From: Candidatus Krumholzibacteriia bacterium
GTDB lineage: Bacteria; Krumholzibacteriota; Krumholzibacteriia; LZORAL124-64-63
Direction: 5' to 3'
Length of the DNA stretch: 36,305 nt
Assembly: GCA_024763215.1 (NCBI GenBank)
Contig: JANTFX010000020.1
Location: 1 to 36,305 of the forward strand
Shown here one piece after another: positions 6,137 to 27,839 of the stretch. The position numbers and the translations under genes were made by a program. Each line of letters starts with the position of its first letter. Position 1 is the stretch's first letter. A model generated the notes under the pieces. It was not told the origin of the DNA. It was given only the letters and a program-made list of their open reading frames with translations, and did not search any database.

Positions 6137-6396
6137 GCCCTTCGCTTGTACCTTGGAAATTGTGTCCGGGGATCTTGGCCGGACGGTCGATGCGGGGTTG
6201 AGATGCTGTAACTACCTGCCAAATGGCGTCCTGGAGGACCGGGAGCCATGGAGGGCGGACGGGCCGGAAGGCCGAGGCTGCCGGAGCCAGGAGGGCGTAG
6301 GCAGCCGTCCATTTGGCAGGTAGTTACAGCATCTCAACTTTATTGGCCGTCTCGGTCAGGTCTGAAAACACAGTTTCCAAGGCACAAGGGAAGGCC
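6137..6396. repeat. Long imperfect palindrome, about 260 bp, abutting the NlpC stop
   Basis: The inner arms 6197-6226 and 6309-6338 are a perfect 30-bp inverted repeat. Outer arms 6145-6165 and 6368-6388 match at 19 of 21 positions, and the stretches between are partly complementary with several G:T pairs. The whole unit could form one giant hairpin. The loop region 6240-6311 is shared with a second locus at 26341-26412. The element ends at the stop codon of the NlpC/P60 gene. No open frame or transposase is inside. It resembles a MITE/REP-type element or a highly structured 3' UTR. Confidence 0.8.
6240..6311. repeat. 72-bp dispersed repeat core, copy 1
   Basis: The block matches 26341-26412 at 64 of 72 positions with no gaps. 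Its 3' half is a stem, 6276-6282 pairing with 6300-6306 (GGCTGCC/GGCAGCC), around a 17-base loop that is unchanged between copies except at one position. The other copy has GGTTGCC/GGCAACC, a compensatory change that keeps the pairing. Confidence 0.85.
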
Positions 6397-7014
6397 TCAG
6401 GGAAGGGAATCCATCCTGCGCACGGCCTTGAGGCGGTACCGCCAGTACGCGTCATCGAGGTCATCGGTGCGCACAGGCTGGTACCGGCGCGGGGCGTGGA
6501 CGAATTTCCGGCCACCGATATAGATGCCCACATGGTTGATCCGGGGCCCGTCCAGGGCGAAGAACAGCAGATCTCCCGGCTGCATGCGTTTCCGTGATAT
6601 TTCCCGCCCTGCGGTCGCCTGCTCGCTCGAGACCCGCGGCAAGGGCACACCCAGGGCTCCGTAGACATAAAAAGCCAGGCCGCTGCAATCGAAACGGTCC
6701 GGACCGGCCGCCCCCCACTGGTAGGGTTTGCCCAGCTGCTCGCGCGCCAGTTCGGCGGCCCGCACGCCCAGGGTCACGTTCTCGGCCGTGGTCTCGGGCC
6801 CGTTCTCAGCCGGCGCCTGCTTTTCAGGTGTTACCTGTTCCCGCGGGGCCGGTGCCGTCGCCGCGGGGGCGGGGGCGGAGACCGGGGGCTCCTGCCGGGT
6901 ATTGATGACGCGCTTGGGTGCGCAGCCCGCAGGGAAAAGGCAGGCAAGGACCAGGGCCGCCAGCAGGACACTCATCCGACCCTGCGCATGGTTCTTTCCC
7001 AAGGTGCCCAACAT
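6397..7014 (-). CDS. NlpC/P60-family peptidoglycan hydrolase, lipoprotein
   Basis: The product is about 205 aa. The N-terminus has a hydrophobic signal ending in lipobox FPAGC, then an Ala/Pro-rich linker of about 45 residues, then an NlpC/P60 domain. The domain has the catalytic Cys in RFDCSGLAFYVYGALG, His in NHVGIYIGG, and the third polar residue region HAPRRY. Such enzymes cleave the gamma-D-Glu to diamino-acid bond of peptidoglycan stem peptides in the periplasm. The size and layout resemble Spr/MepS-type lipoproteins. Tandem ATGs at 7017 and 7014 share a GGAAAGG; 7014 is preferred on spacing. A shorter start at 6975 would also keep a signal peptide. It is divergent from rlmD, and its stop touches the long palindrome. 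Confidence 0.88.
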   Translation of the reverse strand: MLGTLGKNHAQGRMSVLLAALVLACLFPAGCAPKRVINTRQEPPVSAPAPAATAPAPREQVTPEKQAPAENGPETTAENVTLGVRAAELAREQLGKPYQWGAAGPDRFDCSGLAFYVYGALGVPLPRVSSEQATAGREISRKRMQPGDLLFFALDGPRINHVGIYIGGRKFVHAPRRYQPVRTDDLDDAYWRYRLKAVRRMDSLP

Positions 7015-7082
7015 CATCCTTTCCGGCCCGCAGGCCATCCCTGCTGGCCCACCGGGCCGCCAGGTGCTAGTTTAGCCCCACC

Positions 7083-22662: not shown

Positions 22663-23910
22663 ATGACCTTGAACCGTATACCGGCCCGCCTGATGACCTG
22701 GGTCCTGTTGCCGGCGACCCTGGGGAGCCTGCCCGCCCTGGCCAATGACTTCGCCCTGCCCGCCCAACCACCCGCCCAACGCACCGTCAGCCCCACCGAG
22801 CAATGGCGCATCGGCGGCGAGGACGACGAGGACATCTTGCTGGGCATGATCGGCGGCGCGGTCCAGGGCCCCGACGGCAACACCTACCTGCTGGACTCCC
22901 AGCTCTCGCAGGTGCTGGTCATCTCGCCCGACGGCGAACTGGTCACGACCCTGGGCCGCGAAGGCGACGGCCCCGGCGAACTGCGCCGACCCCACGGCCT
23001 GTTCTTCAAAGATGAAGACACCCTGGGCATCGTCCAGGGCTTCCCGGCCAAGATCACCCTACTGGAATTGGACGGCACCCCCGCAGGCACAATCGCCGTC
23101 GGCGGCGAGGCCGACGAGGGGGGCTTCAACTTCCTGAACAAGGCCATGACCGCGGCGGGTAAGCTCGTGGTGCAGAAAGGCCGGGGTACCTTCGACCCCG
23201 AGACCTCCAAATCCTTCCGGGTGGCCACCCTGTCGGTACTGGACATGGAAGGGACCGAGCTGGCCACCATCTGCACCAAGGAAAGCGAGAATGATTTCTC
23301 GCACCGGGTCTACGACGAGGCCAAGGACTTCTCGGAAATGAACGTGTGGACCCTGTCTCCTGCCGGGATCATCTACACCGCACCCGAGCGTGATGCCTAT
23401 GCCGTCAACGCCTACGATCTGGACGGGAAGTTGCTGCATACCCTGCGGCGCCCCTTCTCCCCGCGCAAGCGCACCGCCGAAGACAAGAAGAAGATGGAAA
23501 ACGGCGTCAACATGATCATGAACGGCCGCCGCCTGGACGTCGAAACCCACTTCCTCGACACCGATCCCGACATCAGGAGTCTGCAGGGCACCGCCGACGG
23601 CCGCCTGTTCGTGGCCAGCAGCCACGACCTACTCGAGAATCTGCCTGCGGGTATCGGCGCCCGCTACGACGTGATCTCTCCGGAAGGGGAATTCCTGGAG
23701 GAACTGTCCCTGCGCATCCCGAACTTCGATGCCGCGAACGACCGGCTCATGTTCCTCGACGGGGAGCATTTCCTGCACCTGCGCAACATCCAGTCCGCCA
23801 TCGAGGCCGCCCGGGCCGCCTTCGGAGGAAACAACGACAAGAGCACCAAGGACGATGAAGATCAGGGCGAAGCCGAACCCATGGAGGTCGTCCTCTACCG
23901 CCTTTCCTGA
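22663..23910 (+). CDS. Exported 6-bladed beta-propeller (NHL-like) protein
   Basis: The product is 415 aa. A signal peptide ends about PALAN. The body is a propeller of repeating strands with motifs such as GPDGNTYLLDSQLSQVLVISPDGE, GREGDGPGELRRPHGLFF and RYDVISPEGEFLEE. Such NHL-like proteins are common, usually exported, and of unknown ligand. The last 30 residues are charged and low in complexity. It may be co-transcribed with the upstream porin, and a strong terminator follows. Confidence 0.83.
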   Translation: MTLNRIPARLMTWVLLPATLGSLPALANDFALPAQPPAQRTVSPTEQWRIGGEDDEDILLGMIGGAVQGPDGNTYLLDSQLSQVLVISPDGELVTTLGREGDGPGELRRPHGLFFKDEDTLGIVQGFPAKITLLELDGTPAGTIAVGGEADEGGFNFLNKAMTAAGKLVVQKGRGTFDPETSKSFRVATLSVLDMEGTELATICTKESENDFSHRVYDEAKDFSEMNVWTLSPAGIIYTAPERDAYAVNAYDLDGKLLHTLRRPFSPRKRTAEDKKKMENGVNMIMNGRRLDVETHFLDTDPDIRSLQGTADGRLFVASSHDLLENLPAGIGARYDVISPEGEFLEELSLRIPNFDAANDRLMFLDGEHFLHLRNIQSAIEAARAAFGGNNDKSTKDDEDQGEAEPMEVVLYRLS

Positions 23911-23939
23911 CCCTGGTGTCGGGAGGGCATGAAGGCCGA

Positions 23940-23970
23940 GAAAGCCCCCAACAGGATGTTGGGGGCTTTC
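23940..23970. terminator. Strong bidirectional terminator hairpin
   Basis: A perfect 14-bp stem (23940-23953 with 23957-23970) with a 3-base loop runs from GAAAGCCCCC to GGGGGCTTTC. The A-rich left arm and T-rich right arm let it act for both convergent genes. Confidence 0.9.
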
Positions 23971-24008
23971 GTCCCTGCAAACAGGGGGTCGTTGTAGGGA
24001 GGGAAGAA

Positions 24009-26283: not shown

Positions 26284-26324
26284 GATATTTTTATCCAGAT
26301 ATATAGATTCTAGTTAGGAAATCA

Positions 26325-26472
26325 TGTCCGCCGCATGGCCCGGGAGCCAAGGAGGGCGATAGGGCCGGAAAGCCGAGGTTGCCGGAGCCAGGAGGGCGCA
26401 GGCAACCGTCCAGGGGAGGGGTCCCCAGGGTCAATCAGGCTTCCCTTGGTCCTCTGTGAGAAACGGCGGACA
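26325..26472. repeat. Palindrome-bounded block 3' of ubiX
   Basis: Terminal arms TGTCCGCCG (26325-26333) and CGGCGGACA (26464-26472) bound a 148-bp non-coding block that ends three bases after the ubiX stop. Inside are the 72-bp repeat core (listed separately) and a small GGGGA/TCCCC hairpin at 26413-26426. Confidence 0.7.
26341..26412. repeat. 72-bp dispersed repeat core, copy 2
   Basis: Same-orientation copy of 6240-6311, 64 of 72 bases identical, no gaps. The stem is 26377-26383/26401-26407 (GGTTGCC/GGCAACC), differing from copy 1 by one compensatory base pair. The flanking palindromes of the two copies are different sequences. Confidence 0.85.
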
Positions 26473-26475
26473 CGA

Positions 26476-27081
26476 TTAATCAGCCATCTCATCCCACCGT
26501 GGCACCAGATCCACTTCCACCCCCAGATGGTCGCACACCCTCTGCACGATGAAGTCCACAAGGTCCTCGATGGACCTTGGCCGGTGATAGAAACCCGGGG
26601 CGGCGGGGATGACCAGCGCGCCCAGCTCGCTCAGGCGGGCCAAATTCTGCAGATGGTGGGTGGCCAGGGGAGCCTCGCGCGGCACCAGGAGCAACGGGCG
26701 GCGCTCCTTCAGGCACACATCCGCCGCGCGCAGCAGCAGGGTCTCGCTGGTGCCGGCCAGGATGCGGCCAGCCGTGCCCATGGTGCAGGGTATGATCACG
26801 AAGGGCCCGCCGCGGGCCGAACCGCTGGCCACAGGGGCGGTGAACTCCCGCAAGCCGTATACCCGCAGACTACCCGGACCGAGGCCCTGCAGATAGGCCA
26901 CGACCTCGTCCACCGGCTGGTCCAGTTCCACCGGCGCCGTCTGGGACACCGCCGCGGAGATCACCAGGCTCACATCCCGTCCGGCCTGCAAAAGGACCTC
27001 CACCAGGCGCACCCCGTAGATCAGGCCGCTGGCCCCGGTCCAGCCCACGCCCACGGCGGGAAAATTTTCGGCGGCGCTCAT
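26476..27081 (-). CDS. ubiX: Flavin prenyltransferase UbiX (MqnM-type)
   Basis: The product is 201 aa. UbiX makes prenylated FMN, the cofactor of UbiD decarboxylases, from FMN and dimethylallyl phosphate. Family features are GWTGASGLIYGVRLVEVL at the N-terminus (FMN phosphate loop), PCTMGTAGRILAG, RRPLLLVPREAPL and PAAPGFYHRP. The ATG at 27081 overlaps the ubiE stop by one base (TGATG), with GGAGG just upstream; an in-frame TTG one codon earlier is less likely. It is the third gene of a coupled ubiD-ubiE-ubiX set. The start VGVGWTGASG has Trp where many members have a smaller residue. Confidence 0.92.
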   Translation of the reverse strand: MSAAENFPAVGVGWTGASGLIYGVRLVEVLLQAGRDVSLVISAAVSQTAPVELDQPVDEVVAYLQGLGPGSLRVYGLREFTAPVASGSARGGPFVIIPCTMGTAGRILAGTSETLLLRAADVCLKERRPLLLVPREAPLATHHLQNLARLSELGALVIPAAPGFYHRPRSIEDLVDFIVQRVCDHLGVEVDLVPRWDEMAD

Positions 27082-27839
27082 CAAACCCTCCTGGCCCCGA
27101 CGATGTGGGCGATGCCGAAGGTCTGGCGGTCGATGAACGCCCCCTGGAAACCGCTCTCATCGAGCAGGGCGGCGAACTCGCTGGGGGTCATGAAGGCGCC
27201 CATGCTGTGGCTCAGATAGCTGTAGGCCGATCCGTCCCGGCCCACCAGCTTCCCCATCTTGGGCACAAGGGTGTTCAGGAGCCAGCGCAGCGGCAGGGCC
27301 ACACCCTTCGCCTGCCCCTTGCCCCTCGGATCATCACGGAAGAAATCCAGGACCAGCAGCTGCCCTCCCGGCCTGAGCACCCGGGCGATCTCCTCCACGC
27401 CCCGCTTCACGTCCGCAAAATTGCGCACGCCGAAGCCCACGGTCACCGTATCGACGCTGCCGTCGCCCAGGGGCAGGACCATGGCGTCGGCCGCGGTCAG
27501 GACCAACTTTTCGGCACCCTTTTTTCCTCGCGCGGCGACCAGCATTTCCGGGCAGAAATCCGCCGCGATCCAGGCCCGCCCCCGCCCCGAGCGCATGATC
27601 TCCAGGGCCAGATCCCCCGTCCCCGCACAAAGATCCAGCACCTGCGTGGTGTCATGGTCGGTCAGGGCGGCCACCCGGCGGCGCCAGGTGCGGTCCCGGT
27701 TCAGGCTCAGCAGGTGGTTCATGAAGTCGTACACGCCGGCGATGCGGGCGAACATGGTGCGCACTGTCCGGCTGTGCGCCGTGCGGTCGCGCACGGCCCA
27801 GGACTCGTCCCGCCCGTGGATGTCCTCGAAGCCGGTCAT
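27081..27839 (-). CDS. ubiE: Demethylmenaquinone/ubiquinone C-methyltransferase
   Basis: The product is 252 aa. It is a class I SAM methyltransferase: YDFMNHLLSLNRDRTWRR near the N-terminus and VLDLCAGTGDLALEI as the SAM motif, then DAMVLPLGDGSVDTVTVGFGVRNF and RVLRPGGQLLVLDFF, all signature UbiE/MenG segments. It adds the ring methyl group in the last step of menaquinone synthesis. The start codon overlaps the ubiD stop (ATGA) and its stop overlaps the ubiX start. Frame upstream of 27839 is open but belongs to the ubiD shadow and was not used. Confidence 0.94.
   Translation of the reverse strand: MTGFEDIHGRDESWAVRDRTAHSRTVRTMFARIAGVYDFMNHLLSLNRDRTWRRRVAALTDHDTTQVLDLCAGTGDLALEIMRSGRGRAWIAADFCPEMLVAARGKKGAEKLVLTAADAMVLPLGDGSVDTVTVGFGVRNFADVKRGVEEIARVLRPGGQLLVLDFFRDDPRGKGQAKGVALPLRWLLNTLVPKMGKLVGRDGSAYSYLSHSMGAFMTPSEFAALLDESGFQGAFIDRQTFGIAHIVGARRV

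Follow-up and report, generated by a model that had tools for sequence, protein, structure and literature searches.

The 72-bp core that occurs at 6.2 and 26.3 kb in the window (the whole stretch of 36,305 nucleotides analysed here) is part of a structured core of about 85 nt with three hairpins, and this core caps a long hairpin, the arms of which repeat the local sequence in inverted orientation. The core is dispersed and its helices covary, whereas the arms are specific to the locus; they include inverted coding ends, they differ between orthologous sites by mirrored substitutions, and the core can be found inverted between them. Taken as a whole, this is probably a dispersed, non-autonomous palindromic element with a TwoAYGGAY-type core and template-switched arms. 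What is new here is the frame, i.e. inverted arms which often differ at each locus, while the dispersed structured core itself resembles the known TwoAYGGAY.

An earlier note on this DNA had described the 72-bp core as two copies of the same orientation and 89% identity. The alignment of positions 6239-6310 with 26340-26411, both on the plus strand, gives exactly this identity. The change of one stem pair from C-G to T-A with pairing kept, which the note had also pointed out, can be read in both sequences (GGCTGCC..GGCAGCC at 6.2 kb and GGTTGCC..GGCAACC at 26.3 kb, in hairpin P3), and the two copies do lie 3' of minus-strand genes, coding for an NlpC/P60 protein and a UbiX-like flavoprotein. 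The note was right that the palindromic frames of the two copies differ, but it missed that these frames are inverted copies of local sequence. The frame of the 6.2-kb copy is a perfect 29-bp palindrome, and this copy folds far better than shuffled sequences (z = -11.3 and -12.0 for the two strands). The frame of the 26.3-kb copy is eroded (13/14 bp) and contains an extra stretch on one side. The features of the window are as follows.

6146..6167, plus strand: outer terminal inverted repeat TTGTACCTTGGAAATTGTGTCC of the 6.2-kb copy, common to other copies and to a 1.2-kb IS-like element
6198..6226, plus strand: 29-bp left arm of the 6.2-kb copy, fully complementary to 6309-6337 (sequence and fold)
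6226..6310, plus strand: structured core, copy 1, full-length covariance-model match (101.2 bits, E 1.6e-15), holding the 72-bp core
6245..6256, plus strand: hairpin P1, GCC-ATGGAG-GGC, loop type ANGGAN (sequence)
6262..6273, plus strand: hairpin P2, GGCC-GGAA-GGCC (fold and loop tally)
6276..6306, plus strand: hairpin P3, GGCTGCC..GCC-AGGAG-GGC..GGCAGCC, site of the C-G to T-A change (sequence, fold, covariation)
6309..6337, plus strand: right arm of the 6.2-kb copy (sequence and fold)
6364..6387, minus strand: opposite, degenerate outer terminal inverted repeat of the 6.2-kb copy (sequence)
6397..7038, minus strand: NlpC/P60 gene, 3' end facing copy 1, stop 87 nt from the core
23898..23974, plus strand: decayed third copy, mainly P2/P3 (covariance model 35.4 bits, E 0.0027), at the 3' end of a plus-strand gene
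26320..26333, plus strand: left arm of the 26.3-kb copy, 13/14 bp with 26464-26477, seen by eye and missed by the automatic arm search
26340..26411, plus strand: structured core, copy 2, truncated at its 5' end (89% identity; covariance model 87.8 bits over 26327-26411)
26464..26477, plus strand: right arm of the 26.3-kb copy, its outer end overlapping the UbiX-like stop codon (sequence)
26476..27084, minus strand: UbiX-like flavoprotein gene, 3' end facing copy 2, stop 65 nt from the core

The third copy forms a strong GC-rich hairpin immediately behind its gene. Similar P3-only remnants, which have the appearance of reused terminators, are present at L185 and L186.

A search with a 73-nt core query located 12 places in the genome of the window at E <= 1.4e-9, and a covariance model built from 11 copies located 20 at E < 0.01, including the third copy of the window; these genome-wide statements come from searches of a draft that is 94% complete. 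Such a covariance search, seeded from the copies, had been called for in the earlier note, which envisaged that it might turn up only two copies or further ones with no conserved pairing. Instead, there are about 20 copies in this genome and 110 distinct ones in the family, with strong covariation. Among 98 related genomes 21 had matches, every one of them in the same bacterial family and none outside it, with a maximum of 35 matches per genome; these copy numbers are lower bounds, because many of the related draft contigs end near a copy (L100, L102, L125, L133 and others). The sample examined below consists of 114 fetched matches from this family, representing the 110 distinct copies. The presence of the element varies between orthologous sites. 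With the number of copies and the covariation, this variation supports two of the readings put forward in the earlier note, a structured RNA and a non-autonomous element typical of the genome. An exact-pattern scan of viral contigs matched only three stretches.

The pairing of the core is under selection. The earlier note had drawn this from its two copies, which are too few for the purpose; the conclusion was right, and it is the 110 distinct copies that establish it. The modelled helices are 93.8% paired over these sequences, a percentage that leans towards the model since the alignment was fitted to it, but the double-change counts leave a clear result, as does the slide control: 446 cells have both partners changed, compared to 131 +/- 10 in shuffles and 53-89 when the structure was slid along the alignment. 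The loops are conserved as well. The P1 loop contains GGA in 113 of the 114 copies, and the P3 loop contains either GGA (62 copies) or CGA, of the ACGA type (52 copies).

The mismatches tolerated in the helices give an indication of the strand that folds. On the plus strand the core helices hold about 60 G-U cells for 8 A-C cells, a ratio from which two sets of positions are omitted: the closing pairs of columns 74-110 and 75-109, which are poorly supported and in many copies read A-C, and the short helix P2 (columns 66-67 paired with 72-73), where 16 cells are G-U and 8 A-C. As the core favours G-U over A-C to this extent, the plus strand is the folding strand, either as RNA or as single-stranded DNA; we infer that the functional form is RNA. 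This strand of the core is usually antisense to the nearest gene. The arms, with 140 G-U and 117 A-C cells, have no clear strand preference, and because the bias is found in the core and not clearly in the arms, the two parts appear to be under different rules. The conserved and selected part of the element would be the plus strand of the core, with its three hairpins, two of them with (A)NGGA or ACGA loops.

No Rfam family matches the window at its gathering threshold. The top match is TwoAYGGAY (RF01731), which aligns on the plus strand over its full length, arms included, at positions 6187-6348 (36.2 bits, E = 1.9e-4), below the cut-off of 43. Full-length matches at L037 and L093 (39.9 and 38.5 bits) and to several Marinobacter copies (up to 40.3 bits) are likewise under the cut-off. 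As all scores, ranging from 33.0 to 40.3 bits, stay short of the curated gathering score of 43, we treat the element as a relative of TwoAYGGAY. TwoAYGGAY, which belongs to clan CL00106, goes back to a 2010 proposal based on sequence from the human gut, gammaproteobacteria and clostridia (PMC2864571); CsrA binding was predicted for it in 2014, in a paper that describes its external stem as poorly conserved (PMC4333381). Our element shares with it the strand and a long, poorly conserved outer stem, present here in 102 of 110 copies and in the full-length model alignments. Of the two AYGGAY-like terminal loops that TwoAYGGAY has on one strand, P1 provides an (A)NGGA loop and P3 does so in part of the copies. 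It differs by an additional GGCC-GGAA-GGCC hairpin and by the ACGA loop found in half of the P3 hairpins. Neither of the two TwoAYGGAY papers (PMC2864571, PMC4333381) mentions dispersal in tens of copies or arms copied from local coding sequence, and our literature search, in a collection with few subscription journals, yielded no paper on dispersed TwoAYGGAY copies; among the hits listed for the sequence motif, the papers were unrelated.

The plus strand of the core is probably a protein-binding RNA, for which CsrA appears to be the best candidate partner. CsrA (PF02599) is encoded in 32 of 38 genomes of the family, that of the window included, but it is also encoded in element-free genomes and so does not discriminate between the two. 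Its near-universal presence in the family permits a role for CsrA rather than demonstrating one. Moreover, since half of the P3 loops read ACGA and not AGGA, CsrA binding may be weakened at some copies.

For the arms, we scored the sequence upstream of each core against the reverse complement of that downstream of the same core, with the flanks of different copies as control: 102 of the 110 copies have self-complementary flanks (score of at least 15), compared to 5% of the cross-paired flanks. The mismatch rate of the arms is 2-11% up to about 30 nt from the core and about 25% beyond. In 61 of the 110 copies the arms are unlike those of any other copy. Part of the family nevertheless carries its own arms, as a related arm is common to many copies in genus g6, and several copies in the genome of the window lie in a common outer frame bounded by terminal inverted repeats of 22 bp. 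Over most of the family the arms contain little conserved sequence, and their complementarity would be made and maintained at the DNA level.

The copies are found mostly at gene ends. The earlier note had proposed a check of whether they always follow stop codons, and this is largely though not always the case: the gene on the 3' side of the core reads toward it in 81 of 108 cases, with a stop codon usually 15-90 nt away. Within 100 nt of the core, 73 copies have a stop codon on the 3' side and 26 have one on the 5' side, and in the 36 convergent settings the 3'-side stop is the nearer one in 31; as ORFs were called by a simple rule of length and codon position, individual cases may be mistaken. 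The loops of terminator hairpins are targets for some introns and insertion sequences. The element could have behaved in the same way, its arms being pre-existing long terminators of the host, and both the location just behind stop codons and the preferred orientation would be expected from this. In addition, orthologous sites can hold ordinary terminators (L198, L213), or a long hairpin with another tip, as at L218, behind infB of G002. We nonetheless find this explanation quite improbable, on two grounds. Four element-free orthologous sites (L189, L190, L191 and L192) show no palindrome, and in 28 of 65 gene-adjacent copies the palindrome reaches at least 9 nt into the ORF, where native terminators do not extend.

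The distal arm of L147 is an inverted copy, at 42 of 44 positions, of a stretch with codons for the conserved C-terminus DDITLVVIRRRD, the stop codon and the nucleotides that follow. In G000 and G003 the orthologous genes encode the same protein end with neither core nor palindrome beside it. The same pattern is seen when L143 is compared with L191 and L192. L093 and L151 adjoin related genes whose last codons differ, the distal arm agreeing at each locus with the gene beside it. At L139 the coding end is inverted at 40 of 43 positions. We had taken this locus for a new insertion and have withdrawn that reading, since two of its orthologs retain P3 remnants; L139 therefore speaks for the copying of the arm alone. 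Similarly, some apparently empty orthologs (L185, L186 and L197) represent losses and not pre-insertion sites, because decayed remnants are present there.

The infB 3' end is occupied at the same site in several species and genera (L075, L092, L094, L217, L223, L224), mostly with very different arms, which suggests a long-lived insertion. The long palindrome of L218 (G002:C84) stands behind infB with its different tip where the relatives have the element.

Once formed, the arms change together. In 12 closely related orthologous pairs, which include triplets and are not all independent, we counted 12 mirrored arm differences and 14 one-sided ones, and no site at which both arms had changed and disagreed. 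Several sites distinguish the arms of L124 from those of L129, and at both loci the arms are still perfect. Furthermore, the core was found inverted inside the same arms at two loci, L062 with L153 and L120 with L110 and L211 (L120 lies near a contig end). Homogenisation of arms and inversion of the spacer are the documented outcomes of template switching at inverted repeats (PMC8604942, PMC8794818), a process that has been put forward as a way in which RNA stems arise and are maintained (PMC8794818). The present element resembles the template-switch mutations of quasipalindromes in both respects (PMC8794818, PMC8604942), but differs from them by its dispersed structured core, which forms a spacer of about 85 nt between arms of about 30 nt, and by the very large number of loci. 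From these sequence comparisons, we consider it likely that the arms were made, and are kept matching, by polymerase template switching. At the hairpin, a switch of template would copy one flank of the core into the other. With a gene end beside the core, the stop codon and the last codons would be copied in inverted form, and the same process would occasionally flip the core.

The genomes compared are species apart, which leaves room for compensatory selection behind the mirrored changes. The element could be an ordinary structured RNA, whose arms form an RNA stem under such selection with no special copying. The poorly conserved external stem described for TwoAYGGAY (PMC4333381) would agree with this, as would the arms of the Marinobacter copies, which are uniform in length (27-30 nt), partly conserved in their inner sequence and free of gene overlap. 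However, the G-U preference of the core is not clearly found in the arms; mirrored changes in the arms are nearly as frequent as one-sided ones; and compensation one step at a time would hardly lead to inverted copies that span many codons. We thus regard the ordinary RNA explanation as doubtful, and retain template switching as the likely origin of the arms.

How the core itself spreads is a separate matter. The earlier note had considered a REP-like family and proposed looking for a RAYT. The likeness is real insofar as the element is dispersed, palindromic and extragenic, lies 3' of genes and is sometimes found in inverted pairs; REPs and REPINs with RAYT, including CGTC-tagged REPs, are short palindromic extragenic repeats behind genes, and some REP dimers lie inside longer palindromes (PMC3733652). 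Yet in the drafts searched neither the genome of the window nor any high-copy relative has a Y1 transposase (Y1_Tnp), and only 3 of 38 genomes of the family do. The architecture does not agree either. REPs consist of a 20-40-bp palindrome with an unpaired GTAG or CGTC tag; here the structured core is much longer, about 85 nt in three hairpins, and the arms are not family-specific. The GCGTC at the 5' end of the core is not adjoined by a stem of 8-9 bp, as it is in CGTC REPs, and length and tags are unlike those of both the GTAG and the CGTC families (PMC3733652). Mobilisation of a REP/REPIN-type repeat by a RAYT is therefore highly improbable, and the REP-like reading falls with it.

A more general possibility is that an enzyme inserts the core, either a transposase or a reverse transcriptase that is primed by the gene strand and copies the core RNA, and that snap-back copying then yields the arm. 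The order observed, gene end followed by the complement of the 3' end of the core, is the one that target-primed copying of the plus-strand RNA would give. Several copies in the genome of the window are moreover framed by terminal inverted repeats common to a 1.2-kb IS-like element with a 392-aa ORF, as in a MITE. The terminal inverted repeats of this element (L374 1501-2725, G000:C1:119885-121109) are those that bound the outer frame of the 6.2-kb copy; its ORF gave a sub-threshold helix-turn-helix match and no confident Pfam match. It could move those copies that carry the outer repeats. In all, the outer repeat occurs at 13 places in the genome, the IS-like element included, but it is missing from most copies, which on this point are unlike a MITE. 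The enzymes searched for are also missing where copies abound: neither a Y1 transposase nor an RVT_1 reverse transcriptase was found in G000, G003, G008, G025, G031 or G006, all of them rich in copies. As RVT_1 is absent from most high-copy genomes, we rejected a reverse transcriptase as the mover. An enzyme-driven insertion followed by snap-back copying is, on this evidence, unlikely, and a dispersed element with template-switched arms remains our preferred reading.

We also looked for a transposase between inverted core pairs and rejected this candidate, the intervening sequence being short and without a transposase; the 1-kb gap on G000:C126 holds a cysteine-rich ORF. In genus g8 (L090, L091, L092, L093, L094) inverted core pairs occur about 150-240 bp apart, each core with its own palindrome, repeatedly behind the same genes.

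Relatives of the element exist in other bacteria. An exact search of genomes for an 18-nt motif gave matches mainly in Marinobacter, Halospina and their relatives, and also in planctomycetes and a spirochaete, where the matches may be of a different kind. In Marinobacter, Halospina, Halomonas and others (L225-L343) cores with two ANGGAN hairpins are abundant, with arms that vary between loci. Like the family of the window, this type combines one hairpin, here GCC-ATGGAT-GGC, and a second ANGGAN hairpin with near-perfect, locus-specific arms. Arms were found in 118 of 129 copies tested; the core measures 53-58 nt and the arms mostly 27-30 nt. It differs in that the inner arm end is semi-conserved, genes are hardly ever overlapped and neither orientation is preferred (40 vs 38). 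Because Marinobacter-type arms avoid genes, the inverted copying of gene ends is a feature of the window's family and not of all such elements. A description of these cores as a repeat family was absent from the literature searched, which included few subscription journals.

We tentatively propose, at somewhat less than even confidence, that TwoAYGGAY-type elements are RNA hairpins that move and form an outer stem of their own from host sequence. Upon landing behind a gene, the hairpin would have the gene's 3' end copied, by template switching at the core during replication, into an inverted second arm, giving a locus-specific hairpin that stays matched to itself as the host evolves. Since 2010 TwoAYGGAY has had the status of a candidate RNA with no assigned function. 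The finding that its relatives are high-copy and dispersed, in the window's family as in Marinobacter-like bacteria, shifts the question from the regulated gene to the means of spread and the partner of the core. The arms would provide many natural replicates of template switching in which coding sequence marks the direction of copying internally. They also carry a warning, as covariation in a long stem can arise from DNA copying without selection on RNA; the comparison of G-U with A-C cells by strand can separate such arms from a core.

Finally, another repeat, of the form CCCGCAGNGGTAACCCGGAGG..GCAAAGTCGGGC, is present twice in tandem at L096 (G002:C56).
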